Positions 1,588-18,270 of a stretch of 28,876 bases of DNA are shown one piece after another. The notes under the pieces were generated by a model. It had not been told where the DNA came from. It searched no databases and worked only from the letters and a program-made list of their open reading frames with translations. The stretch is taken from positions 1 through 28,876 of IMG/VR virus record IMGVR_UViG_3300030105_002229, one strand, 5' to 3'. Source of the stretch: a virus. How positions within the stretch are numbered: position 1 is the stretch's first letter; the number at the start of each line of letters is the position of its first letter. The position numbers were made by a program, and so were the translations under genes.

Positions 1588-3797
1588 TGGCATATCAACA
1601 AACATTATATACAATAGTCAAAGACTACGTTAAGCCTCAGGTTATTAAAAAAAATAACAGATACGCTAAATGGAAATATGGCTATAATAAAGAATACGAT
1701 TTAATCGTAATAAGCCAAACAGGTAAAATAGGGGAAATATATCTTATTGGAAATATTCATATTGCTTTACCTAAAAACGAAGACGCAAAAGATCTTGGCG
1801 AAAATAAATGGGTGGTAAGCGAATATCCTAAGGAATTAAGTAAAATAAAAAGTGAAGCTGATTGGGCAAAATATCCCAATGCTTTTCAAGAAAAGTGGCA
1901 TCCCTATATAGATACTGAATTTGAAAGAAGAGAAAAAGGATATTGGTTTATTAACAAAAATATTCCTACTTATATTACAGGTACTCATTATATGTACTTG
2001 CAGTGGTCAAAAATTGACGTCGGATTACCTGACTTTCGAGAATCAAACAGATTGTTCTATTTGTTTTGGGAAGCTTGCAAAGCGGACAATAGATCCTACG
2101 GAATTTGCTACCTTAAAAATAGACGTTCTGGATTTTCGTTCATGTCGTCGGGAGAAACAGTTAATGCAGCTACAATATCATCAGACGCGCGATTCGGTAT
2201 ATTATCTAAATCCGGTGCGGATGCGAAAAAAATGTTTACAGATAAGGTTGTACCGATCTCGGTCAATTATCCGTTCTTTTTTAAACCAATACAAGACGGG
2301 ATGGACCGTCCCAAAACGGAATTGGCGTACAGAGTACCCGCTTCCAAATTTACAAGAAGAAAACTAGACGATAACAATAAAGCTGAAGACCTTGATGGGC
2401 TAGATACAACTATTGACTGGAAAAATACAGGTGATAATAGTTATGATGGTGAGAAGCTAAAGCTATTAGTTCACGATGAAAGCGGTAAATGGGAAAGACC
2501 TACAAACATACTTAATAACTGGAGAGTTACAAAAACCTGTTTAAGGTTAGGTAGCAGAATTGTAGGCAAATGTATGATGGGTTCAACATCTAACGCTTTG
2601 GATAAAGGAGGTAAAAACTTTAAAAAATTATATGATGGATCAGACGCATCAACTAGAAACAAGAATGGTCAAACTAAAACGGGGTTATACAAACTTTTTA
2701 TTCCTATGGAATGGAATTATGAGGGTTTTATTGATCAGTATGGCTATCCTGTGTTTGATGTTCCGAAGAAAGAAACATACGGACCACATGGAGGCGAAAT
2801 AACAGAAGGAGTTATACAACATTGGGAAAATGAAGTTGAAGGGCTAAAAGATGATCCAGATGCTTTAAACGAATACTACAGACAGTTTCCAAGAACAGAA
2901 GCCCATGCTTTTAGAGATGAATCTAAACAATCTATATTTAACTTAACAAAAATCTATCAACAAATAGATTATAACGATGAGTTAAGAAATAATACTATGG
3001 TTACCAAGGGTAACTTTCAATGGGAAAACGGAATTAAAGATACAAGAGTTATGTTCTATCCTAATAAGGATGGCAGATTTTATGTTACTTGGGTCCCAAA
3101 TCAAGAACAACAAAATAATGTAATAATAAAGAATGGAAACAAACATCCTGGAAATGAACACATGGGAGCATTTGGTTGTGACAGCTACGATATTAGTGGT
3201 GTTGTTGGTGGTGGCGGCTCTAATGGTGCATTACACGGATTAACTAAGTTTTCAATGGAGGATGTACCTCCTAATCATTTCTTTTTAGAATACATAGCTA
3301 GACCTTCAACAGCTGAAATGTTTTTTGAAGATGTGTTAATGGCATTGGTTTTTTACGGCATGCCATTGTTGTGTGAAAACAATAAACCTAGATTACTTTA
3401 TTATTTAAAACGTAGAGGGTACAGAGGTTTTAGCATTAATAGACCGGATAGAACTTATAACAAATTATCTTTATCAGAACGAGAAGTAGGTGGAATACCT
3501 AATTCAAGTGAAGATATAAAGCAAGCGCACGCTTCAGCAATTGAAACTTATATAGAAGATTTTGTAGGAATAACTAAAGAAGGTTATGGAGACGTTTATT
3601 TGCAAAGAACATTAGAAGATTGGGCAAAGTTTGATATAAATAATCGAACAAAGCATGATGCGTCAATAAGCTCAGGCTTAGCTTTAATGGCTTGCAACAA
3701 ACATAGGTACAGTCCAAAAGGAGCTATAGCAGTTAAGAAAATTAACTTAGGCTTTAAGAAATACAATAACGAGGGAACTACTTCAAAAATAATGTAA
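1587..3797 (+). CDS. terL: Terminase large subunit (packaging ATPase and nuclease)
   Basis: This 736-residue protein is the DNA-packaging motor: it docks on the portal, hydrolyses ATP to drive DNA into the prohead, and cuts the concatemer. The ATPase half has a Walker A-like loop at residues 177-187 (KNRRSGFSFMS), Walker B at 293-298 (LLVHDE, catalytic Glu298) and a coupling motif near 332-335 (GSTS). A typical FPRTEAHAF lies at 434-442. The RNase H-like nuclease half has GCDSYD at 530-535 (Asp532), LLCENN at 594-599 (Glu597) and KHDAS at 689-693 (Asp691), the expected acidic triad. The Walker loop has Phe in place of the usual Lys before Ser184, a variant that I believe occurs in other phage terminases. 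Length is above the usual 450-650 residues. It is followed 3 bases later by the portal gene. Confidence 0.95.
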   Translation: MAYQQTLYTIVKDYVKPQVIKKNNRYAKWKYGYNKEYDLIVISQTGKIGEIYLIGNIHIALPKNEDAKDLGENKWVVSEYPKELSKIKSEADWAKYPNAFQEKWHPYIDTEFERREKGYWFINKNIPTYITGTHYMYLQWSKIDVGLPDFRESNRLFYLFWEACKADNRSYGICYLKNRRSGFSFMSSGETVNAATISSDARFGILSKSGADAKKMFTDKVVPISVNYPFFFKPIQDGMDRPKTELAYRVPASKFTRRKLDDNNKAEDLDGLDTTIDWKNTGDNSYDGEKLKLLVHDESGKWERPTNILNNWRVTKTCLRLGSRIVGKCMMGSTSNALDKGGKNFKKLYDGSDASTRNKNGQTKTGLYKLFIPMEWNYEGFIDQYGYPVFDVPKKETYGPHGGEITEGVIQHWENEVEGLKDDPDALNEYYRQFPRTEAHAFRDESKQSIFNLTKIYQQIDYNDELRNNTMVTKGNFQWENGIKDTRVMFYPNKDGRFYVTWVPNQEQQNNVIIKNGNKHPGNEHMGAFGCDSYDISGVVGGGGSNGALHGLTKFSMEDVPPNHFFLEYIARPSTAEMFFEDVLMALVFYGMPLLCENNKPRLLYYLKRRGYRGFSINRPDRTYNKLSLSEREVGGIPNSSEDIKQAHASAIETYIEDFVGITKEGYGDVYLQRTLEDWAKFDINNRTKHDASISSGLALMACNKHRYSPKGAIAVKKINLGFKKYNNEGTTSKIM

Positions 3798-3800
3798 TAA

Positions 3801-6212
3801 ATGAATGTAAGTACAAATACTAATAGCCCATTTCCGGATCAAGTAGTAAGTGATGCTGAGAAAGCAACTATAGAATATGGATTGCAAGTATCGCGAGCTA
3901 TTGAGCAAGAGTGGTTTAATTACGGGGGTAGTGGTTCTAATAGATATGCTTCTAACTGGAATAACTTTCATAATTTAAGACTATATGCCAGAGGAGAACA
4001 AAGTGTACAAAAATATAAAGATGAATTAGCTATCAATGGTGATTTGTCTTATCTTAATTTAGATTGGAAACCAGTACCAATACTTTCAAAGTTTTCAAAT
4101 ATAGTAGCTAATGGTATAACGCAAAAGCAATATGATATTACGTCTTATGCTCAAGACCCTGAATCTTTAAATAAAAGAACTAAATATGCTCAGGATATTA
4201 TGTTCGACATAAATACTGCCGAAGCAAGAGCGTTAGCTACTCAAGTTATGCCTGGAGATTATAGTAAGTCACCTTTAAAAGAAAACGAACTTCCTGCAAG
4301 CAAAGAAGAAATGGAATTGCACATGCAATTATCTTACAAACAGTCTATAGAAATAGCAGAGGAAGAAGCAATTAATACAGTACTAGCTACTAATGAGTTT
4401 GATATAACTAAATCAAGGGTAAATCAAGATTTAGTTAACATAGGTATAGGTATAACTAAAACATCGTTTAATCCCGCAGAAGGCATAGTGGTTGATTATG
4501 TTGATCCCGCTTATTGTGTTTGGTCTTATACAGAAGATCCAAACTTTGATGATATATATTATGTAGGAGAAGTTAAATCTATAACTATACCTGAACTTAA
4601 AAAAGAATTTCCTCACATTTCTGATGAGGAATTAGAAAGAATCCAAAAATCACCAGGTAACCGTAGACTTATACGAGGTTTTGAAAACTATGATTACAAT
4701 ACTGTTCAAGTAATGTATTTTGAGTACAAAACTTATACTGATCAAGTTTTTAAAATAAAGAAAACTGATAACGGATTAGAAAAAGCTATTGAAAAAACGG
4801 ATGCTTTTAATCCTCCGGCAAACGATAACTTTGATAGAATATCAAGATCAATTGAAGTGTTGTACGAAGGAGCTAAAGTTGTAGGATCAGATATGATGCT
4901 TAAATGGGAAATGTCTGAAAATATGACAAGACCTATGGCTGATACAACTCGTGTTGAGATGAGTTACTCAATGGCAGCTCCTAGAATGTACAAAGGGGTT
5001 ATACAATCGCTTATAAGTAAATGTATAGGTTTTGCTGATATAATACAATTAACACATTTAAAAATGCAGCAAGTTTTATCTAGAATGGTTCCTGACGGAA
5101 TATTTTTAGATATGGATGGTTTAGCGGAAGTGGATTTAGGTAATGGAACAAATTACAACCCAGCAGAAGCGTTAAATATGTACTTTCAAACAGGTTCTGT
5201 TGTAGGTAGATCATTAACACAAGACGGAGATATGAATAGAGGCAAAGTTCCTATTCAAGAATTATCATCATCAAGTGGTATTGGTAAAATACAAGCTTTA
5301 ATAACCGCATACAATTATAATATGCAAATGATTAGAGATGTAACCGGTTTAAATGAAGCTCGCGATGGGGCAATGCCAGATGCAAATTCTTTAGTTGGTT
5401 TGCAAAAAATGGCGGCTAACGCTTCTAACACTGCTACGAAACATATACAAGATGCAAGTATATACTTATCTTTAAGCACTTGTGAAAATATATCTTTAAA
5501 AATTGCAGATGTGTTAAACTTTCCGCTTACTAAAAATTCTTTAATGAATAGTATATCTACGTTTAATGTAGAAACTCTTAAGGAAATTGAAAATCTTAAT
5601 TTGCATGACTTTGGTATATTTTTAGAAATGGAACCAGATGATGAAGAAAAAGCAGATTTACAACAAAACATACAAATAGCTTTACAAACAAAAGAAATTG
5701 ATATTGAAGATGCTATTGATATTAAAGAAATAAAAAATATAAAACTTGCTAATCAATTACTTAAATTAAAGCGTAAGAAAAAGCAAGAAGCAGCTCAAGT
5801 TCAAGTGCAACAAAATATTCAAGCACAGGCTCAAGCAAATGCTCAATTAGCGGAAAAATCAGCTATGGCTGAAGTACAAAAACAACAAGCATTAACATCT
5901 GAAAAAGTTTCGATAGAACAAGCTAAAGCTGGTTTTGAAATGCAAAGAATGCAAGCTGAAGCTCAAATTAAAAAAGAGTTAATGGCTACTGAGTTTCAAT
6001 ACAATATACAATTAGCTCAAGCTAATGTTGCTGCTACGCAACAAAAAGAAAAAGAAATTGAAGATCGTAAAGATAAAAGGGTTAAAATTCAAGGAACTCA
6101 ACAAAGTGAGTTAATAGAGCAAAGACAAAGCGAAGGAATGCCTAAAAACTTTGAGTCCCAGGGCAATGATGTAATGGGTGGTTTTGATTTATCTTCATTT
6201 GATCCTTCTTAA
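3801..6212 (+). CDS. Portal protein
   Basis: The 803-residue product lies directly between terminase and the scaffold and capsid genes. Portals form the 12-subunit ring at one head vertex, through which DNA enters and leaves and onto which terminase and tail attach. Supporting features are an N-terminal part with aromatic, helical segments (WNNFHNLRLYARGEQSVQKY), a central region with DPAYCVWSYTEDPNFDD, where portals often have a VDP motif followed by a clip-like part, and SGIGKIQALITAYNYNMQMI followed by RDVTGLNEARDG. The last 180 or so residues are a long Gln/Ala/Glu/Lys-rich helix, like the barrel helix of P22-type portals. Length is in the upper range of podovirus portals. No catalytic motif is expected. 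Assignment is by order, length and general pattern. Confidence 0.88.
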   Translation: MNVSTNTNSPFPDQVVSDAEKATIEYGLQVSRAIEQEWFNYGGSGSNRYASNWNNFHNLRLYARGEQSVQKYKDELAINGDLSYLNLDWKPVPILSKFSNIVANGITQKQYDITSYAQDPESLNKRTKYAQDIMFDINTAEARALATQVMPGDYSKSPLKENELPASKEEMELHMQLSYKQSIEIAEEEAINTVLATNEFDITKSRVNQDLVNIGIGITKTSFNPAEGIVVDYVDPAYCVWSYTEDPNFDDIYYVGEVKSITIPELKKEFPHISDEELERIQKSPGNRRLIRGFENYDYNTVQVMYFEYKTYTDQVFKIKKTDNGLEKAIEKTDAFNPPANDNFDRISRSIEVLYEGAKVVGSDMMLKWEMSENMTRPMADTTRVEMSYSMAAPRMYKGVIQSLISKCIGFADIIQLTHLKMQQVLSRMVPDGIFLDMDGLAEVDLGNGTNYNPAEALNMYFQTGSVVGRSLTQDGDMNRGKVPIQELSSSSGIGKIQALITAYNYNMQMIRDVTGLNEARDGAMPDANSLVGLQKMAANASNTATKHIQDASIYLSLSTCENISLKIADVLNFPLTKNSLMNSISTFNVETLKEIENLNLHDFGIFLEMEPDDEEKADLQQNIQIALQTKEIDIEDAIDIKEIKNIKLANQLLKLKRKKKQEAAQVQVQQNIQAQAQANAQLAEKSAMAEVQKQQALTSEKVSIEQAKAGFEMQRMQAEAQIKKELMATEFQYNIQLAQANVAATQQKEKEIEDRKDKRVKIQGTQQSELIEQRQSEGMPKNFESQGNDVMGGFDLSSFDPS

Positions 6213-9942: not shown

Positions 9943-10860
9943 ATGGCAGTAAATGTAGACATAGTTTATAAAACGGTATTACTTATTCTTAATAAAGAAC
10001 AAAGGGGTAACATGACACCAGACGAATTTAATAAGGTTGCTACGCAGGTACAACTTGAAATATTTGAAAGCTATTTTGAAACTTTAAATCAACAAGTACG
10101 AAGGCCAGATAATGACACAGAATATGGTGATCGCATTAAAAACGTAGATCAAGGTATTTCTGTATTTAAAACATACGGTAATGCAACTTATGTTCCCACG
10201 GGAGGATACTTTTCTTTACCAGCAGTATCAGGTGTAGGATCTGCTTCTCAAAATTTTACAGGAGACGGATTAATGCAGTCTTTTATTTTTACATCAATAA
10301 CCTCTTCTCAGTTATCTAATAGTGTGATAGCTGTTACTATAAACGGTGTACCAACCACAGCTTATAGTATATCTGGAAATAATATAGTGTTTACTACTAT
10401 TCCTGCTTTAAATGACATTATATTTGTTACAGCGACTCCAGAAGACTTTTATAAACTAGGAACAGTTATATATCAAGACACAAAAGAAGTTCAACTGTCC
10501 CAGCGTAACGAGCTTTTATATTTAAACTCTACACCTTTAATAGCTCCAACAACAACTTACCCTATATACTTATACGAAGACCATAAATTGTATTTATATC
10601 CACTATCTATAACTTCAAATGTACAAGTTAGTTATTTACGAAAGCCTGTTGATGTTGTATGGAATTTTACAATACCCACAGGACAGAATTATTACCAATA
10701 TAATCCCGTAAATTCTGTTAATTTTGAATTATCTAAAACAGAACAAGCTAATATAATATTAAGAATATTACTTTATTCAGGAATTGTAGTAAGAGATCCG
10801 TCGATAGTTAATATAGCTTCGCAACAAGTTCAACAAGAACAAATGAATTCAAAACAATAA
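9943..10860 (+). CDS. Head-tail adaptor-like protein with inserted beta module
   Basis: ATG at 9943 follows the A-rich leader AAAAGAAATAAA and is preferred over an in-frame TTG at 9907, which would begin inside the hairpin. The 305-residue product starts with a helical region (residues 3-55, TPDEFNKVATQVQLEIFESY) and then a strand-rich core in which GYFSLP (88-93) and TPEDFYKLGTVIYQ (165-178) would normally be adjacent. Residues about 100-163 lie between them and form a beta module (FTGDGLMQSF, VIAVTINGV, YSISGNNIVF, LNDIIFV). It ends with helices and a Gln-rich tail. Helix plus beta core downstream of the capsid genes fits a head-completion or connector protein. Function is inferred from position and fold class. 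Confidence 0.75.
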   Translation: MAVNVDIVYKTVLLILNKEQRGNMTPDEFNKVATQVQLEIFESYFETLNQQVRRPDNDTEYGDRIKNVDQGISVFKTYGNATYVPTGGYFSLPAVSGVGSASQNFTGDGLMQSFIFTSITSSQLSNSVIAVTINGVPTTAYSISGNNIVFTTIPALNDIIFVTATPEDFYKLGTVIYQDTKEVQLSQRNELLYLNSTPLIAPTTTYPIYLYEDHKLYLYPLSITSNVQVSYLRKPVDVVWNFTIPTGQNYYQYNPVNSVNFELSKTEQANIILRILLYSGIVVRDPSIVNIASQQVQQEQMNSKQ

Positions 10861-10863
10861 GAT

Positions 10864-12087
10864 ATGCCTATACCTAATGGCGGTTTAATAACCGAAACTA
10901 ACGAACAATATTACGCTGGAGCTCAGCGATTTATTTCAGATGGAAATGGCGTAATAACTACAACATTTGATACTGATCTAATACTAGGATCATTTGACCC
11001 CAACGCTTTAAATTACACTTTAAATAATTTTAAATTATATACAAGCGAAACAGGTTTACCAGGAAGATACGAAGAGTATACATTAGCTTATACTGTTGCT
11101 AATAACGTTATAACTTTTGCAGTTGCTCCAGATGCGGGTGATTATATAGCGGTACAATTAAAGATTTTAAATGGTGGTAGTTTTGGTGTAGGAGACGCAT
11201 CTGGAACTGCCACCGGAACAACTGTTGAAGAAAATTACGGAAGCTACGGTTATACATCTTTAAATGATGTAATAAATGGATTTATAGCTACTTATGTAGG
11301 AGAACATAAATTAATAAGTGATTGTAAAAGAACTGATGTTATATTCCACGCAAAAAGAGGATTACAAGAATTTAGTTATGATACATTAAAAAGTATTAAT
11401 TCTCAAGAATTAACAATTCCTCCAAGCTTAAGTGTTACAATACCTCAAGATTACGTTAATTACGTAAGTATGTCTTATATAGACGCTATTGGTGTTAAAC
11501 ACCCTTTATATCCAGCTAATGATTTAACTATTAGTCCTTATGAAGTTCCTTTACAAGATGATTCTGGAAATTACACAATGGACAATTTTGGTGATAATTT
11601 AGAAGGGTCTTCTTTAACAAATGAAAGATGGGCAGCAGCTAATGATAACTTGCTTAACGGAAATATAACTGCTGAAGATTATTTTGCTTATAGCGGATGG
11701 TTAACTGGTAATCCATTATTAGGTCAAAGGTATGGCAATGAGCCACAATATGCTCAGGGAAATGGATGGTTTAACATGAACGAAAGAGATGGAACTATAG
11801 CTTTCTCATCTAACTTAAAAGATCGTTTAATAGTGTTAGAATACATTTCTGATGGCTTAGCTTATGAATTAGACATGAGGATACCAAAGATGGCTGAGGA
11901 CGCTTTATATGCTCATATTTTGTATTCTATATTGGCAGGAAGAATCAATCAACCCGAATATGTTATACAAAGATTAAAAAGAGACCGATCAGCTAAATTA
12001 AGAAATGCAAAAATAAGGTTATCAAACATTAAACTATCAGAGATAGTACAGGTAATGAGAGGTAAATCTAAATGGATTAAATCGTAA
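10864..12087 (+). CDS. Tail adaptor/tubular-like protein
   Basis: The 407-residue product starts 3 bases after the previous gene. Residues 1-20 contain TNEQYYAGAQ. Residues about 21-100 carry a beta module like the one in the preceding gene (ISDGNGVITTTF, YTVANNVITF, DAGDYIAVQL). Residues from about 125 on resemble a podovirus adaptor (T7 gp11/P22 gp4 type): a helix (DVINGFIATYVGEHKLI, then VIFHAKRGLQEFSYDTL), a strand (ELTIPPSLSVTIPQDYVNYV), a long Asn/Gly-rich middle, and a C-terminal helical part (MRIPKMAEDALYAHILYSIL) with a basic end. Such proteins ring the portal and bind the tail nozzle. No catalytic motif is seen. The role is inferred from order and pattern. Confidence 0.75.
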   Translation: MPIPNGGLITETNEQYYAGAQRFISDGNGVITTTFDTDLILGSFDPNALNYTLNNFKLYTSETGLPGRYEEYTLAYTVANNVITFAVAPDAGDYIAVQLKILNGGSFGVGDASGTATGTTVEENYGSYGYTSLNDVINGFIATYVGEHKLISDCKRTDVIFHAKRGLQEFSYDTLKSINSQELTIPPSLSVTIPQDYVNYVSMSYIDAIGVKHPLYPANDLTISPYEVPLQDDSGNYTMDNFGDNLEGSSLTNERWAAANDNLLNGNITAEDYFAYSGWLTGNPLLGQRYGNEPQYAQGNGWFNMNERDGTIAFSSNLKDRLIVLEYISDGLAYELDMRIPKMAEDALYAHILYSILAGRINQPEYVIQRLKRDRSAKLRNAKIRLSNIKLSEIVQVMRGKSKWIKS

Positions 12088-12091
12088 TTAA

Positions 12092-15000
12092 ATGGCTCAA
12101 GAAATTAAGAATACATTTCTAAAATCCAAGATGAATAAAGATCTTGATGATAGAATATTGCCAAACGGCGAGTATAGAGATGCTTTAAATATATCCGTAG
12201 GTAGATCAGAAGATAATGATATAGGCGCTTTAGAAAATGTTATAGGAAACTCTTTACTTACAAATACTGAATTAAACATACCTGGATTAAACATTATAGG
12301 AATTAAACCTGACGATTCAAGCGAAAAAATATTTGTTTTTTTAACCAATTATACTGACTTAAACCCGCTAAATCCCACACCAGCACCTGCAAATACATTT
12401 CATTTTTTGTATTCTTATAACACTACAAACAATCAATATACAAAATTGTTAGAGGGGCATTTTTTAAATTTTTCTACAACTAATAGAATTATAGGTATTA
12501 ATTTATTAGAAAATCTTTTATTTTGGACAGATAATCGTAATCAGCCAAGAAAAATAAATATAGATTTAAGCGCAGGTAGTAATTCTTTATTTAATAACCA
12601 ACAACAAAGAACAGAGGATGGTCCATATTATACAGAGGAACATCAAATTTCTGTTGCAAAATACAACCCTTATCAAGCGATTAAATTATACAAAAGAGTA
12701 GAATTAGTTGCTATAGGTGGTGCTGGCTCCTATTTTTCAGTTGCAGGCGATAGAGTAACAGAGCTTTCTAAATACATAGGGGGTACGGTATTGAAAAGAC
12801 TGCAAACTAATCCAATAAGTGGAAATGATCACGTAACTGTTGCTAGTGTGATACTAATAGGCGGCACTACTAGAATTACGGTTTCTCCTGCTTTAACTGA
12901 AAATATAACCGCAAATCAAGAAATAATTATAATATCCTCCAATATGAGTAATGAGTCGGCTAATACCGAATGGCCGGGGGATCCTAATTTTTTAGAAGAT
13001 AGATTTGTTAGATTTAGCTATCGCTTTAAGTATGACGATAACGAATATTCGTTAATGGCTCCATTTACTCAAATAGCTTATATACCAACTCAAAAAGGAT
13101 TTTTTATACAAGAAGATGAGGAAGCTACTTATCAATCTACTGTTGTACAATTTATGAAAAATAATGTACAAAATGTAAATTTATCAGTGCCATTGCCTGA
13201 CGCAGCTACAGCATTAGCTAGATCTTATAAAATCCAAGAAATAGAGTTGTTGTTTAAAGAAGCTGATGGTACAGTGGTTAAAGTTTTAGAAAGCATTCCA
13301 GTGTCAGTAGTTGCTGCCCAGGGACCTTACGGTTTTTATGAATATGAATACCAATCTCGTAAACCCTACAAAACCCTTCCAGAGGCTCAAACAGTTAGGG
13401 TATATGATAAAGTGCCTATAAGAGCTTTTTCTCAAGAAACTGCGGGTAATAGAATTATTTATGGTAATTACATTGACCAGCACACTCCACCGGATAACTT
13501 AAATTACAACTGTAGAATATCTCAAAAAAATACAACTGGTAGATTTAATAATTTTGTAGAATATCCTAATCATTCTGTAAAAAGAAATAGAAATTACCAA
13601 ATAGGATTTGTTTTATCAGATAAATTTGGCAGGCAATCTCCTGTTATATTATCTTCTGTAGATAAGATTGGCCTTCAAGAGGCGGGTATTTTTTATTCTG
13701 GATCAAGTATTTATAGCCCTTACGATGATTCTATGAATGATACTGATGTTATGGAGTGGGTGGGGGATTCAATACTTATTAATATTAATTCTCAAATATC
13801 TTCTGTAAAAAATAACAGTACAGGTACACCTGGTTTATATGCAATACAACAAAAAGATACCTCCTCTGGGGACGGATACGCTGTAATAGCTGGGGATTCT
13901 ATAATAAATAATACGTACACTTTTACACTTAACAATGGTTTTAGCAGCAACGAAAACATTCCTAAAAAAGGAAATTATTTAAGAGGAAAGTTTAAAGATT
14001 TTGTTTTAGTTACAAATGTAGTTGAACCTAACTCTGGCAGTTATATAATAACAACTTTAGGTCAAGTAAATAGTTCATATTTACATGTTGAACCTCCCGT
14101 TGATACTGTGCCAATATTAAGATTTGCATATATTATAAACGATTTAGGTTGGTATTCTTATAAAATTGTTGTTAAACAAACACAACAAGATTATTATAAC
14201 GCTTATTTACCTGGATTTTTAGATGGATATCCTATATCTTTAAAGAATGACGATGATCCTCCAGTTAATATTATTGATTTTCCTACCGGCGAATTAGGTA
14301 AAACAGCTCACGTTGTTTTAATAAACGATAATATTAATAAAATACCTAGAGATTTATCAGAAGTTGGTCCAGAACAAAAACAATATAGATCTTCTGTAAA
14401 GTTATACGGAAGAGTTAATAATTTTCTTACTCTTAATGGTGAAAAACCTTTTACTCAACAATATTTTCCTAGAGTTGGTATAAGTGCTAATGCCGTAGAT
14501 CACGTTGCTTCTACCATTGCTAGTGCTTTAGAATTAAAATTTATACCTATTGAGATCAGCAATCCTACGGCTCTTTATCAACTTAACACTAATCCTTATA
14601 TAGCTAGATTAGCTACATCTGAAACTGGTATTGCTAATCCACTTGGTATTAAAGCTGAAGGTGATAAAATGATACCGGCTCTTACTATTTACGAAACAGC
14701 CGCTCAAGAATCTTTATTGCCTATATATTGGGAAACTACATCCGAAGGTCTTATTGCCGATTTAAACGCCGATGTTCTAGAGGACTTTCCTGGAGCCACT
14801 GATTTACAACCCTCTGGTTGGGCATTAGAAGAGGACTTAGCTCCTGGAGAGATTTTTACAAGAAATATATATGCTACTAGCGCAGAAGGAAATCCGTTAA
14901 TAAACGCAATTATTACTTTAGAAAGTATTACAAGAGGTACTAATAATCCAATAGTTATTACAAATGACGGTATTATAGATATAAATATTCCAGATAGCAC

Positions 15001-16804
15001 TTCTCCAGATTTTGGTTCTTTTAGTCTTAAAGTAGGGGTAAATAATGAGTCATTAGTATTTACTGAAAATTCTCCGGATATAGATCGGTTTACTGTAGAC
15101 ATTAAAGTTATATCTGATGGAGTTACTTCCTTTTTTACAATTCAAGATTTTTTAGGAAATAGTGATCCTTTTATAAAATCTTATGCCGATTCTATTGTGG
15201 AATCATTTAACCCTATTGTTATACCGGCCAGACCATATACAAATATTAATATTAAAAATGGGGCACAAAACGCGGAGAACCAAACGCAAGATATAATATT
15301 CTTTATGGAAGAGGCTCCTACTGGATGGGTTATTAGTCCAGAAAATGGACAAGTAACGCAAGTTCCTTTTAGCACTACAGAAGGGGTTTATAATTTTTTT
15401 ATAGGCGTTAAAGATGCAAATGGTGTTGGTTCACAATCTTTATCTAACAAAACACCTGTAAAAGTAACAATACGTCCACCATCTGTAAACGATAATATTA
15501 TTCCTTCCACTTGTTTTGTTAAACTTGATAATACAAACCAAGCTGCTGACAATAAATGTATTACTTCAAAAAATAACTTACAACCAGCATCGGGAATTTG
15601 GTATATAGGAAATGGTCCTATAGATGGAGCGCTTTTAGGAAGCATAGATGAAGGAACCAGTCCGTCACAATTTCAGATAGGAACTGAAGGTCACACCAGA
15701 GGAGTATTGTCTTTTACTTATAATTTACATAGAGGCATTGATGATCCCACCGGGGAAAGCATAGATGTGGATATGTTAGTTGATAAAGTAAAATTTTATT
15801 ATAGAATAGCAGGTACCAATAATGGAACTTGGTTGCAACTACCTAGAAAAAATGATACATATAATAATACCAGTACTACAGCTGGTGAAGGTAATGTATC
15901 TCCTGGTATTTCGCCTATAGATTCGGGTTCTAATAGACAAGATTTTCCTTCCAATACTTCAAATGTTGGTTCAAAGTGGCGAGTTCAGGGGTCTCAAGAT
16001 CCTAATACGGGTGAAATAAATAGAATTTATGCAACAGGTATAAGAGTATCGGATTACAATTCATATACTGAAATTGACGAAGGAGCTATTATTGAATATG
16101 CAATATTTATTAAAAATCTTAAGCCTAGCGAAGTAGGGAATGTTTCTAATTTTTCAAAATGTGCTCCTTATGCTTTTATTACTGTAGAAGATATAAACTA
16201 TACAAAATGTTTACCTATAAATGGAGTAAATGGAATTAATGTGGATCAGCCAAAATATGACGGAACTCCCCACTATATTTTTCAATATTTTAGATCAGAT
16301 GAACAACTCTTTGAGAAATGGGCAGAAAAATATCCTGTTTTTAATGATGATGGAACTCCAAAAAACGCTGCATTGTACTCTAATATAGCGCATCCAGAAT
16401 TTATAAATGAATTTTTTACAAACAAACTTTTAAGTGAAATTTATGTACCCACTGCAGAATCAAAGTCTATAAATTACGTTGGTGTTATTCCTGTTCCGCT
16501 AGAATGGACTCCAGCTGACCCAGCCAATGAACCATTTTACTTTCCAGACACAGTATCTGTATATTCTTGGTTTATAAATGGGTATTCTACTCCTGCCGTT
16601 GCTACAACATTAACTTGGTCCGCACTATTGGCAAATGATTTTGATGAAGTTGTTGATGGTAAAAAATTATTTACTTTAGCGGAGAGTGAAACTACAGGAG
16701 TTGGATCTGCTCAAGTAAGTTTTAATGAACCTAACACTGGTGTAAATTTGGAACAGAGATTATTTGGAACTACTAGATTTGGCGTACGCAATAATGTTAC
16801 TTAA
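12092..16804 (+). CDS. Large tail protein, nozzle/stabilisation type, 1570 aa
   Basis: The N-terminus has IKNTFLKSKMNKDLDDRILP followed by NGEYRDALNISVGRSEDND and GALENVIGN (45-53), a 'few mutations, describe the network, compare to the reference' style start seen in tail stabilisation/tubular proteins of the T7 gp12 or P22 gp10 kind. About residues 55-500 contain repeated short strands (IIGIKPDDSSEKIFVFLTNY, HFLYSYNTTNNQYTKLLEGH) that suggest a beta-propeller. Residues about 920-1130 look like Ig/cadherin-type beta domains (for example YNFFIGVKDANGVGSQSL and VKVTIRPP). The rest is strand-rich with scattered cysteines. It should act outside the head as part of the short tail, perhaps also in surface contact. 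The length is far above T7 gp12 (about 790), so extra domains are fused. Confidence 0.75.
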   Translation: MAQEIKNTFLKSKMNKDLDDRILPNGEYRDALNISVGRSEDNDIGALENVIGNSLLTNTELNIPGLNIIGIKPDDSSEKIFVFLTNYTDLNPLNPTPAPANTFHFLYSYNTTNNQYTKLLEGHFLNFSTTNRIIGINLLENLLFWTDNRNQPRKINIDLSAGSNSLFNNQQQRTEDGPYYTEEHQISVAKYNPYQAIKLYKRVELVAIGGAGSYFSVAGDRVTELSKYIGGTVLKRLQTNPISGNDHVTVASVILIGGTTRITVSPALTENITANQEIIIISSNMSNESANTEWPGDPNFLEDRFVRFSYRFKYDDNEYSLMAPFTQIAYIPTQKGFFIQEDEEATYQSTVVQFMKNNVQNVNLSVPLPDAATALARSYKIQEIELLFKEADGTVVKVLESIPVSVVAAQGPYGFYEYEYQSRKPYKTLPEAQTVRVYDKVPIRAFSQETAGNRIIYGNYIDQHTPPDNLNYNCRISQKNTTGRFNNFVEYPNHSVKRNRNYQIGFVLSDKFGRQSPVILSSVDKIGLQEAGIFYSGSSIYSPYDDSMNDTDVMEWVGDSILININSQISSVKNNSTGTPGLYAIQQKDTSSGDGYAVIAGDSIINNTYTFTLNNGFSSNENIPKKGNYLRGKFKDFVLVTNVVEPNSGSYIITTLGQVNSSYLHVEPPVDTVPILRFAYIINDLGWYSYKIVVKQTQQDYYNAYLPGFLDGYPISLKNDDDPPVNIIDFPTGELGKTAHVVLINDNINKIPRDLSEVGPEQKQYRSSVKLYGRVNNFLTLNGEKPFTQQYFPRVGISANAVDHVASTIASALELKFIPIEISNPTALYQLNTNPYIARLATSETGIANPLGIKAEGDKMIPALTIYETAAQESLLPIYWETTSEGLIADLNADVLEDFPGATDLQPSGWALEEDLAPGEIFTRNIYATSAEGNPLINAIITLESITRGTNNPIVITNDGIIDINIPDSTSPDFGSFSLKVGVNNESLVFTENSPDIDRFTVDIKVISDGVTSFFTIQDFLGNSDPFIKSYADSIVESFNPIVIPARPYTNINIKNGAQNAENQTQDIIFFMEEAPTGWVISPENGQVTQVPFSTTEGVYNFFIGVKDANGVGSQSLSNKTPVKVTIRPPSVNDNIIPSTCFVKLDNTNQAADNKCITSKNNLQPASGIWYIGNGPIDGALLGSIDEGTSPSQFQIGTEGHTRGVLSFTYNLHRGIDDPTGESIDVDMLVDKVKFYYRIAGTNNGTWLQLPRKNDTYNNTSTTAGEGNVSPGISPIDSGSNRQDFPSNTSNVGSKWRVQGSQDPNTGEINRIYATGIRVSDYNSYTEIDEGAIIEYAIFIKNLKPSEVGNVSNFSKCAPYAFITVEDINYTKCLPINGVNGINVDQPKYDGTPHYIFQYFRSDEQLFEKWAEKYPVFNDDGTPKNAALYSNIAHPEFINEFFTNKLLSEIYVPTAESKSINYVGVIPVPLEWTPADPANEPFYFPDTVSVYSWFINGYSTPAVATTLTWSALLANDFDEVVDGKKLFTLAESETTGVGSAQVSFNEPNTGVNLEQRLFGTTRFGVRNNVT

Positions 16805-16818
16805 AAAATAAAAAAATT

Positions 16819-18270
16819 ATGTCAGCTACAATAGAACTAAAATACTTTAATACCTTCTGGTTAAAAAGAATACAAGATATATCTTATGCAGAACAAGTGG
16901 TGGGGGGCGTAACATATCCCATATCGCCTACTTTTAATGATCCTCTTGTTCCTGAAAATTTACCACTTACTTTTACTTATAAAAGTAATAACCCTGAGGA
17001 TAAAAACGGACTAGCAACGTTTATTGTAAGTCCTGACGATGACAAAGATTGGTTAATAGAAGAATCCAGAATACGAGGAGGCTATAATAACACATCAGTC
17101 GATTTAGGTGTTAAAGCTTATTTAGTAGAAGAAGAAAATAATCAAACCCATAAAGCTAGCGGATTAATATATTCAGGTATATTTAATTCTAGAACAGGTA
17201 TAAATCAAACTAATCAGTTTTCAGTTGCGGAAGATATTACAAGAACTATAGATCCTGCTAATGGTTCTATTCAAAGACTTTACGCTGAAGATACAAATCT
17301 TATTATATTTCAAGAAAGTAAGGTAAGTAAATCTTTAATAGATAAAGATGCAATATATTCAGCAGAAGGAAATGCTAGTGTTACTAGCCGTAATTTAGTT
17401 ATAGGTCAAAACGTAGCTTTTGGAGGTGAATACGGAATAAGTAAAGATCCTGAATCTTTTGCTGTTAACGGTTATAGAAAGTACTTTACAGATAGAGAAC
17501 AAAATGTAGTTTGTAGGTTGTCTATGGATGGTATAACCATCATATCTAATTATGGAATGATTGATTTTTTTAGAGATAAATTATCTACAGCAAAAGTTAA
17601 CGGAATATTTGGGGGCTGGGATGCTCATAATAAACAATATGTAATATCAATAAGCGAACAGCAAGGATCCAATAGAGAAACAGAATATAATACATTGTCT
17701 TTTGACGAAAGTGCAAAGGGGTGGACTAGTTTATTTAGTTATAAACCAAATCAAATTTTTAGCTTAAATAATAATTTTTATACCACTAAATTAGGGGAAA
17801 TTTATAAGCACTATTCATTTGATAATTCTACTTCTACACATGGTAGGTTTTATGGAATAGGGTATAATTCTAAAGTAACATTTGTTTTTAATGGTGCCCC
17901 TTCTATGATTAAAAACTTTCAAACTATTAATTACGAAGGTGATAATGGTTGGATAATGGAATCTTTTAAAACAGATGTAGACACAGCTTTCCCTATAACA
18001 GCTTCTAATAGGCCTACCACATTAATTGCTATGCAAAATAATTTACTTGTAAATAATTTTAAATTAAAAGAAAATAAATATTATGCAAATTTAGTAAACA
18101 ATAGCCCCTCCTCATTTGGAGAAATTGTTTGGGGAAGTTCTTCCTCTGGACTTAAAGGATTTTATGGAGAGGTAACTATGAAGATAATTAATGAAACTAC
18201 CAATATTAGAAATGCAATAGGTAAAAAAGAATTATTTGCAGTAAGCACAGGATTTGTGCGATCATCTTAA
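16819..18270 (+). CDS. Beta-rich tail protein, 483 aa
   Basis: The product lies 14 bases after the 1570-residue tail gene and is almost wholly strand-rich. It has repeated propeller-like segments: RLYAEDTNLIIFQESKVS, NRKYFTDR-like KYFTDREQNVVCRLSMDG, IFGGWDAHNKQYVISI and FSLNNNFYTTKLGEIYKHYS. The order of a 'read-out' strand, then a Gly-Trp-Asp-type turn, is common in phage tail hub and nozzle proteins. It may complete the structure begun by the preceding protein, with which it is probably co-expressed. No enzyme motif or membrane segment is visible. It could instead be a separate tail-fibre anchor. Confidence 0.72.
   Translation: MSATIELKYFNTFWLKRIQDISYAEQVVGGVTYPISPTFNDPLVPENLPLTFTYKSNNPEDKNGLATFIVSPDDDKDWLIEESRIRGGYNNTSVDLGVKAYLVEEENNQTHKASGLIYSGIFNSRTGINQTNQFSVAEDITRTIDPANGSIQRLYAEDTNLIIFQESKVSKSLIDKDAIYSAEGNASVTSRNLVIGQNVAFGGEYGISKDPESFAVNGYRKYFTDREQNVVCRLSMDGITIISNYGMIDFFRDKLSTAKVNGIFGGWDAHNKQYVISISEQQGSNRETEYNTLSFDESAKGWTSLFSYKPNQIFSLNNNFYTTKLGEIYKHYSFDNSTSTHGRFYGIGYNSKVTFVFNGAPSMIKNFQTINYEGDNGWIMESFKTDVDTAFPITASNRPTTLIAMQNNLLVNNFKLKENKYYANLVNNSPSSFGEIVWGSSSSGLKGFYGEVTMKIINETTNIRNAIGKKELFAVSTGFVRSS

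Follow-up and report, generated by a model that had tools for sequence, protein, structure and literature searches.

In phicrAss001 (hereafter crAss001), the tail barrel is built from stacked rings, and the docking hubs of the tail fibres are described as attaching at two of them, R1 and R2 (PMC10172136). In other phage groups, accessory domains have likewise been reported on neck rings, in extracts of the respective papers. The adaptors of SU10, T7 and KP32 carry fibre-dock domains, whereas those of P22 and Sf6, which have no long fibres, do not (PMC9509320). The stopper of phage 812 bears an external beta-sandwich that is missing from homologues (PMC12886913), the beta-sandwich being described for stopper and adaptor, and a small beta-barrel inserted in the head completion protein (HCP) of DT57C (DII, residues 44-111) binds the portal and not a fibre (PMC10713586). 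Neck and adaptor rings with optional beta-domains on their outside are thus a known theme, of which the locus described here would be a variation. As in SU10 and phage 812, the domain that we call module A is present in some homologues and absent from others. The likeness to SU10, 812 and DT57C is drawn from the presence of a domain on a neck ring, and would extend only tentatively to insertion points or, for SU10, to fold. An accessory domain in two successive ring genes is a feature of our locus that the extracts on these three phages do not mention.

The window, i.e. the whole stretch of DNA analysed (28,876 nucleotides), spans 28,876 of the 29,743 bases of its virus record. By PHROG and Pfam, it encodes TerL, a portal, a capsid-type virion protein (phrog_13704), a 293-aa protein, the two proteins A and B, and muzzle-type genes. 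It comes from an uncultured crAss-related phage, whose formal family we leave unassigned. Among cultured phages, the nearest found were Maribacter phage Panino, the Flavobacterium elemo phages and Cellulophaga phi38:1, in which A and B are adjacent too. In the window, no gene intervenes between A and B, and a muzzle gene adjoins B, as it does gp43 in crAss001, where the ring genes stand in the same order, after the major capsid protein and before the muzzle. The muzzle-type protein is seemingly split over two genes (12092-16804 and 16819-18270): positions 1-182 of phrog_14478 match the first and 923-1258 the second, on which the crAss muzzle C-terminal domain PF25729 is also found. A co-chaperonin GroES-like protein (765-1370; phrog_13932, E 5e-26) is encoded upstream of the terminase gene. 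The features of A and B are as follows:

9943..10860, + strand: gene A, predicted 305-aa tail-barrel ring protein, crAss001 R3/R4/R5-like, with module A (phrog_14543, E 8.6e-28)
~10237..10440, + strand: module A, predicted beta-jellyroll, residues ~99-166 of A, between GYFSLP and TPEDFYKLGT (fold matches, bimodal lengths)
10864..12087, + strand: gene B, predicted 407-aa tail-barrel ring protein, crAss001 R1-like, with module B (phrog_13977, E 2e-42 over residues 122-396)
10864..10914, + strand: conserved N-terminal arm of B, residues 1-17, ending ..EQYY (96% mean identity in the window's clade)
~10912..11166, + strand: module B, predicted beta-jellyroll, residues ~17-101 of B, between arm and core (fold matches, arm-to-core lengths)
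11230..12084, + strand: ring-protein core of B, residues 123-407 (phrog_13977 match; VIA rows spanning 125-407)

The first-pass annotation had taken A and B for connectors, a label that we replace by tail-barrel ring protein, A being nearest in fold to R3-R5 of crAss001 and B to R1. Both display the ring-protein fold (three helices plus a beta-sandwich). The AF2 model of A (start codon ATG at 9943; pLDDT 84) was aligned to ring protein 3, gp35 (7qoj_D, VIA Z 12.4), and matched ring protein 4/5, gp34 (7qoj_E, Foldseek E 7.1e-6). The model of B, with a low-confidence core (pLDDT 63 overall), was aligned to ring protein 1, gp43 (7qog_B, VIA Z 10.1), and also to ring or adaptor proteins of other short-tailed phages, e.g. 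KHP30 (Z 10.3). By sequence family, both belong with virion proteins of crAss-related phages; phrog_14543 was detected in 44/44 A members and phrog_13977 in 43/43 B members, both families being annotated only as virion structural protein. Full-length A and B gave no Pfam match above cut-off, and SU10_adaptor matched 12 of 44 A homologues weakly (best E 0.0013). Searches of the PDB, with single proteins and full-length profiles, returned no ring relatives of A or B, so that their assignment as ring proteins relies on the comparison of folds and on gene order. The hhalign comparison of the A and B families with crAss001 ring sequences was not significant either (best 8.7%, E 0.004), and the crAss001 ring proteins (225-238 aa) are much shorter than A and B. 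On these models, A and B belong to the tail barrel of a crAss-related phage, as ring proteins. One relative, L054, has two A-type ring genes, 1961-2650 (229 aa) and 3248-3994 (248 aa), which suggests an extra ring.

A and B each carry a module of ~65-85 aa with the same predicted fold, which confirms the initial observation that the same type of module recurs in successive genes; the motifs quoted at the time are indeed found at those places in the 305-aa and 407-aa proteins. In the AF2 models, the elements come in the same order, namely E101-106, E113-115, H121-126, E127-133, E136-138, E141-144, E147-150 and E159-166 in module A, and E20-24, E30-32, H49-53, E56-61, a short pair at 70-71, E76-79, E82-85 and E94-99 in module B, residues 21-100 of B being modelled at pLDDT 76-90 by ten-residue blocks. 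Both modules were aligned by VIA-align to the same residues of CBA120 TSP4 (7rfv 187-250; A 99-166, Z 8.9, 1.6 Å, 62 residues; B 17-101, Z 7.0, 2.2 Å, 62 residues). These residues correspond to domain XD2, given TSP4 linkers at 179-188 and 250-264 (PMC8825819), and both modules are predicted to have the beta-jellyroll fold of XD2/XD3, which is also that of T4 gp10. They also align to Shigella phage B2 (9d84_B 123-191; Z 8.2 for A, 5.6 for B), to the P1 baseplate (9ay5 139-234; Z 6.3 and 5.6) and to T7 tail chains. Among neck proteins, two phage 812 entries were matched by module A at residues 143-208, namely a neck chain (8qkh_A, Z 6.8) and the stopper (8qgr, Z 6.4), and module B was aligned to 42-109 of the DT57C HCP chain (Z 6.3). 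Most of these Z-scores lie between 6 and 9, and the tool warns that values <8 may reflect a common arrangement and are not decisive alone; the case for a common fold therefore rests on the agreement of many chains and on sequence.

Similarity in sequence between the modules is weak, yet above shuffled controls. An HMM built from A modules only scored module B at 17.8-18.0 bits (0/2000 shuffles reached this score); apart from A and B, the highest-scoring protein had 7.0 bits, in a set of 815 segments of 92 aa taken from the proteins of the window. The reciprocal B-module HMM gave 10.3 bits on module A (next best 5.9; 0/2000 shuffles). By hhalign, the two modules were matched at 72% over 25 columns, or at 70% over 62 collinear columns, unrelated core controls remaining <1% in the 25-column run. 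It could be argued that two unrelated small beta domains have converged and are alike only through a common hairpin motif: the best common stretch is that of 25 columns, plain BLASTP of full A against full B yields no significant match, and two of five A-module subgroups reach profile similarities of only 3.3% and 0.7% with module B. We nevertheless consider convergence highly improbable, because the elements of the modules are in the same order, both are placed on identical stretches of the same solved structures, no shuffle attained the observed score in either HMM direction and the 62-column profile alignment is collinear.

Judged from their sequences, the modules are only distantly related and not recent duplicates. 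We rejected the idea that one module had been duplicated locally into the adjacent gene, as module A is much nearer to marine tail-fibre modules (98.5%, in a comparison set found via an A-family module and hence favouring A) than to module B (72%).

The annotation had also linked the modules to the N-terminal regions of phage tail fibres. This kinship is borne out by fibre matches and by fold; it is strong for A and weak for B. A tblastn search with the module of relative L114 (E up to 1) retrieved 20 phage records, the annotation of seven of which was compared. The matches lie at the N-termini of the fibres of the marine phages HTVC041P, Bylgja and S-CBP1 (residues 5-63, 8-64 and 7-63, respectively), in a Vibrio pectin-lyase-fold protein (83-152), at the C-terminus of a cyanophage lyase and in a baseplate wedge protein. 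The best match (E 3e-5) was to the C-terminus (745-807 of 879) of the T7-type tail tubular protein B of MedDCM-OCT-S28-C3, a marine T7-like phage in which the same kind of module is thus seen near the end of this protein (L141:2995-3198). These three fibre N-termini pass the Pfam family Phage_T7_tail (PF03906). The T7-type fibre N-terminal domain, found in pelagiphage and cyanophage fibres, shares the predicted fold of our modules and is matched to module A by tblastn and profiles, but the window's modules sit inside ring proteins and neither of them matches PF03906 above the Pfam cut-off. In addition, a ring-only profile finds the solved tail fibre gp9 (E 1.4e-4), and module A aligns to 7ey9_b (Z 7.7; an entry titled tail proteins) and to 7ey7_a of the T7 tail complex (Z 6.0).

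For module B, the fibre N-terminal fold was recognised in T7 gp17 (7boz_c, Z 6.4, 2.4 Å, 68 residues), and a tail-fibre HMM scored 10.6 bits, a value reached by 2/2000 shuffles. The tail-fibre family phrog_18673 was detected in 6/44 A proteins (best 1e-4), 1/43 B proteins (0.003) and 1/25 B modules (5e-4), the last being the only significant match of module B to sequences outside its clade. A tblastn search with a B module found no match in the phage collection, and B modules alone retrieved nothing credible from the PDB. Among the other proteins of the window and 20 longer records of relatives, no A-type module was found besides A and, weakly, B, in a search of limited profile reach in which 11/20 records were matched and records may be incomplete.

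The presence or absence of the modules was then compared between homologues. As had been suggested, module A is inserted in a loop of A, since homologues without it exist. In 99 distinct homologues of at least 220 aa (left after removal of 8 shorter ones from 107 distinct hits), the stretch between fixed flanks follows a bimodal distribution: it measures 25-50 aa in 46 homologues and 98-107 aa in 52, with a single one at 185 aa. Another homologue set was found with a pattern from the module itself, and presence counts including those hits are biased; the tally to rely on is that of the best 80 loci found via B, near relatives only. Of these, 78 had a full A homologue: 38 with the module, 39 without it and 1 with another insert. 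The A homologues of Panino, the elemo phages and phi38:1 lack the module. Unrelated Gly-rich inserts were observed near the module-A loop in relatives L056 (2124-3338) and L250 (1557-2480), and in a different, C-terminal loop of the A homologue of L137 (4001-5023).

Module B, described at the outset as N-terminal, does lie near the N-terminus, but as an internal insertion between the conserved arm (..EQYY) and the core (..YGSYxY). The arm is partly common to module-less homologues, which keep the YY pair. From this YY to the GSYxY of the core, 92/93 close B homologues of at least 330 aa have 102-115 residues (one was unmatched by the pattern), versus 4-10 residues in 53/53 distinct complete homologues from sister lineages (85 loci; total length 285-302). 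Module B is kept throughout the window's clade and is absent from sister lineages. Within this clade (35 members), both modules are less conserved than the cores of their proteins: module A has 72% identity versus 92% for the N helices and 81% for the C core, and module B 57% versus 84% for the B core.

On a tree of the joined cores, from which the module columns were left out (97 rows, quick method), module A requires four label changes, of which starred branches force at least three. The A core alone gives three changes (at least three forced) and the B core alone seven (at least four forced). The best tree found with all module-A bearers as one clade was rejected (AU p 8.4e-5). These are quick trees with some long branches and have to be read with caution. 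At least three gains or losses of module A have taken place; the counts give no direction between gain and loss, the three outgroups being without the module. The idea of a ‘mobile’ cassette is therefore only partly sustained. Module A is patchy on the tree of its carrier gene and has changed at least three times, but module B shows no such patchiness within the clade, and the copies in A and B are remotely similar instead of near-identical.

What such modules could do is suggested by their greater variability and by other phages. A small predicted beta-jellyroll of the tail-fibre-root kind (T7 gp17 N-terminus, T4 gp10, TSP4 XD2/XD3) is inserted in each ring protein, probably in a surface loop: in A it follows the ‘..LP’ strand, and in B it separates the N-terminal arm from the first helix of the core. 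Every ring would accordingly bear a crown of module copies outside the barrel, twelve if it is dodecameric as in crAss001, and this crown may offer tail fibres, a collar or another decoration a face for protein-protein docking. XD domains, by comparison, form trimers in spikes and baseplates, and a ring would give many copies round the barrel; XD2 and XD3 are reported to bind partner spikes or fibres (PMC8825819). We infer the dodecamer, the outward orientation and the docking itself, and consider the chances that the inserted jellyrolls provide such a docking face on two rings to be evenly balanced. Several observations are consistent with it: the common fold on the same solved chains, the fibre-annotated relatives of module A, the clean bimodality of the insertions in A and B, the greater variability of the modules, which favours an exposed role, the 3-7 changes required for the module-A label depending on the tree together with the rejection of a single clade, and the extracts describing SU10, T7 and KP32 adaptors, partner binding by XD2/XD3 and the crAss001 hubs at R1/R2. 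Against it stand the comparable inserted domain of DT57C, which is described as portal-binding, the fact that only about half of the close relatives sampled possess module A, the absence of any partner gene found for the modules and the weaker parts of the comparison (most Z 6-9, a poor model of the B core, module B without significant outside matches except phrog_18673, and two A subgroups unlike B).

The same DT57C precedent would suit modules that, rather than docking fibres, strengthen the contacts of the stacked rings with one another or with the portal clip, all the more as module B aligns to the HCP chain over nearly the residues of DII and as B resembles R1, the portal-adjacent ring in crAss001. 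Such a clamp seems fairly unlikely to us: a fixed clamp would not be expected to be clearly less conserved than the ring cores, module A can be missing, as it is from about half of the relatives sampled, and the likeness to DT57C covers the inserted domain and only tentatively its insertion point. Variability and patchiness, together with the Gly-rich inserts of L056 and L250, which suggest an insertion-tolerant loop near module A, would rather fit a surface domain without a fixed virion partner, binding weakly to host surfaces or particles or merely tolerated. Plain decoration of this kind is unlikely, as mere tolerance would not explain the retention of module B in nearly all measured close homologues, and no carbohydrate-binding family was found above the Pfam cut-off. 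From sequence and analogy, docking would thus be our first choice over a portal or ring clamp and over plain decoration.

A search of titles and abstracts, mostly without subscription papers, revealed no recognised description of such modules in crassvirus ring proteins; likewise, no paper on fibre-type domain insertions in neck adaptors was found, most subscription papers being outside the coverage. A broader reading, which we put forward tentatively and regard as rather doubtful, is that a marine crAss-like lineage grafted tail-fibre root domains onto two consecutive rings, and that fibres or a collar attach there and not via a separate R2/THA/THB hub as in crAss001.

Tail barrels of crAss-like phages thus appear to be customised, their ring proteins accepting a small, putative docking fold at defined loops; the module is kept in one ring and has been repeatedly gained or lost in the next. 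The natural pairs with and without the module make the idea of fibre attachment testable. Should fibres be held by these modules, the mode of fibre attachment in a large uncultured marine group could be predicted from which phages carry them.
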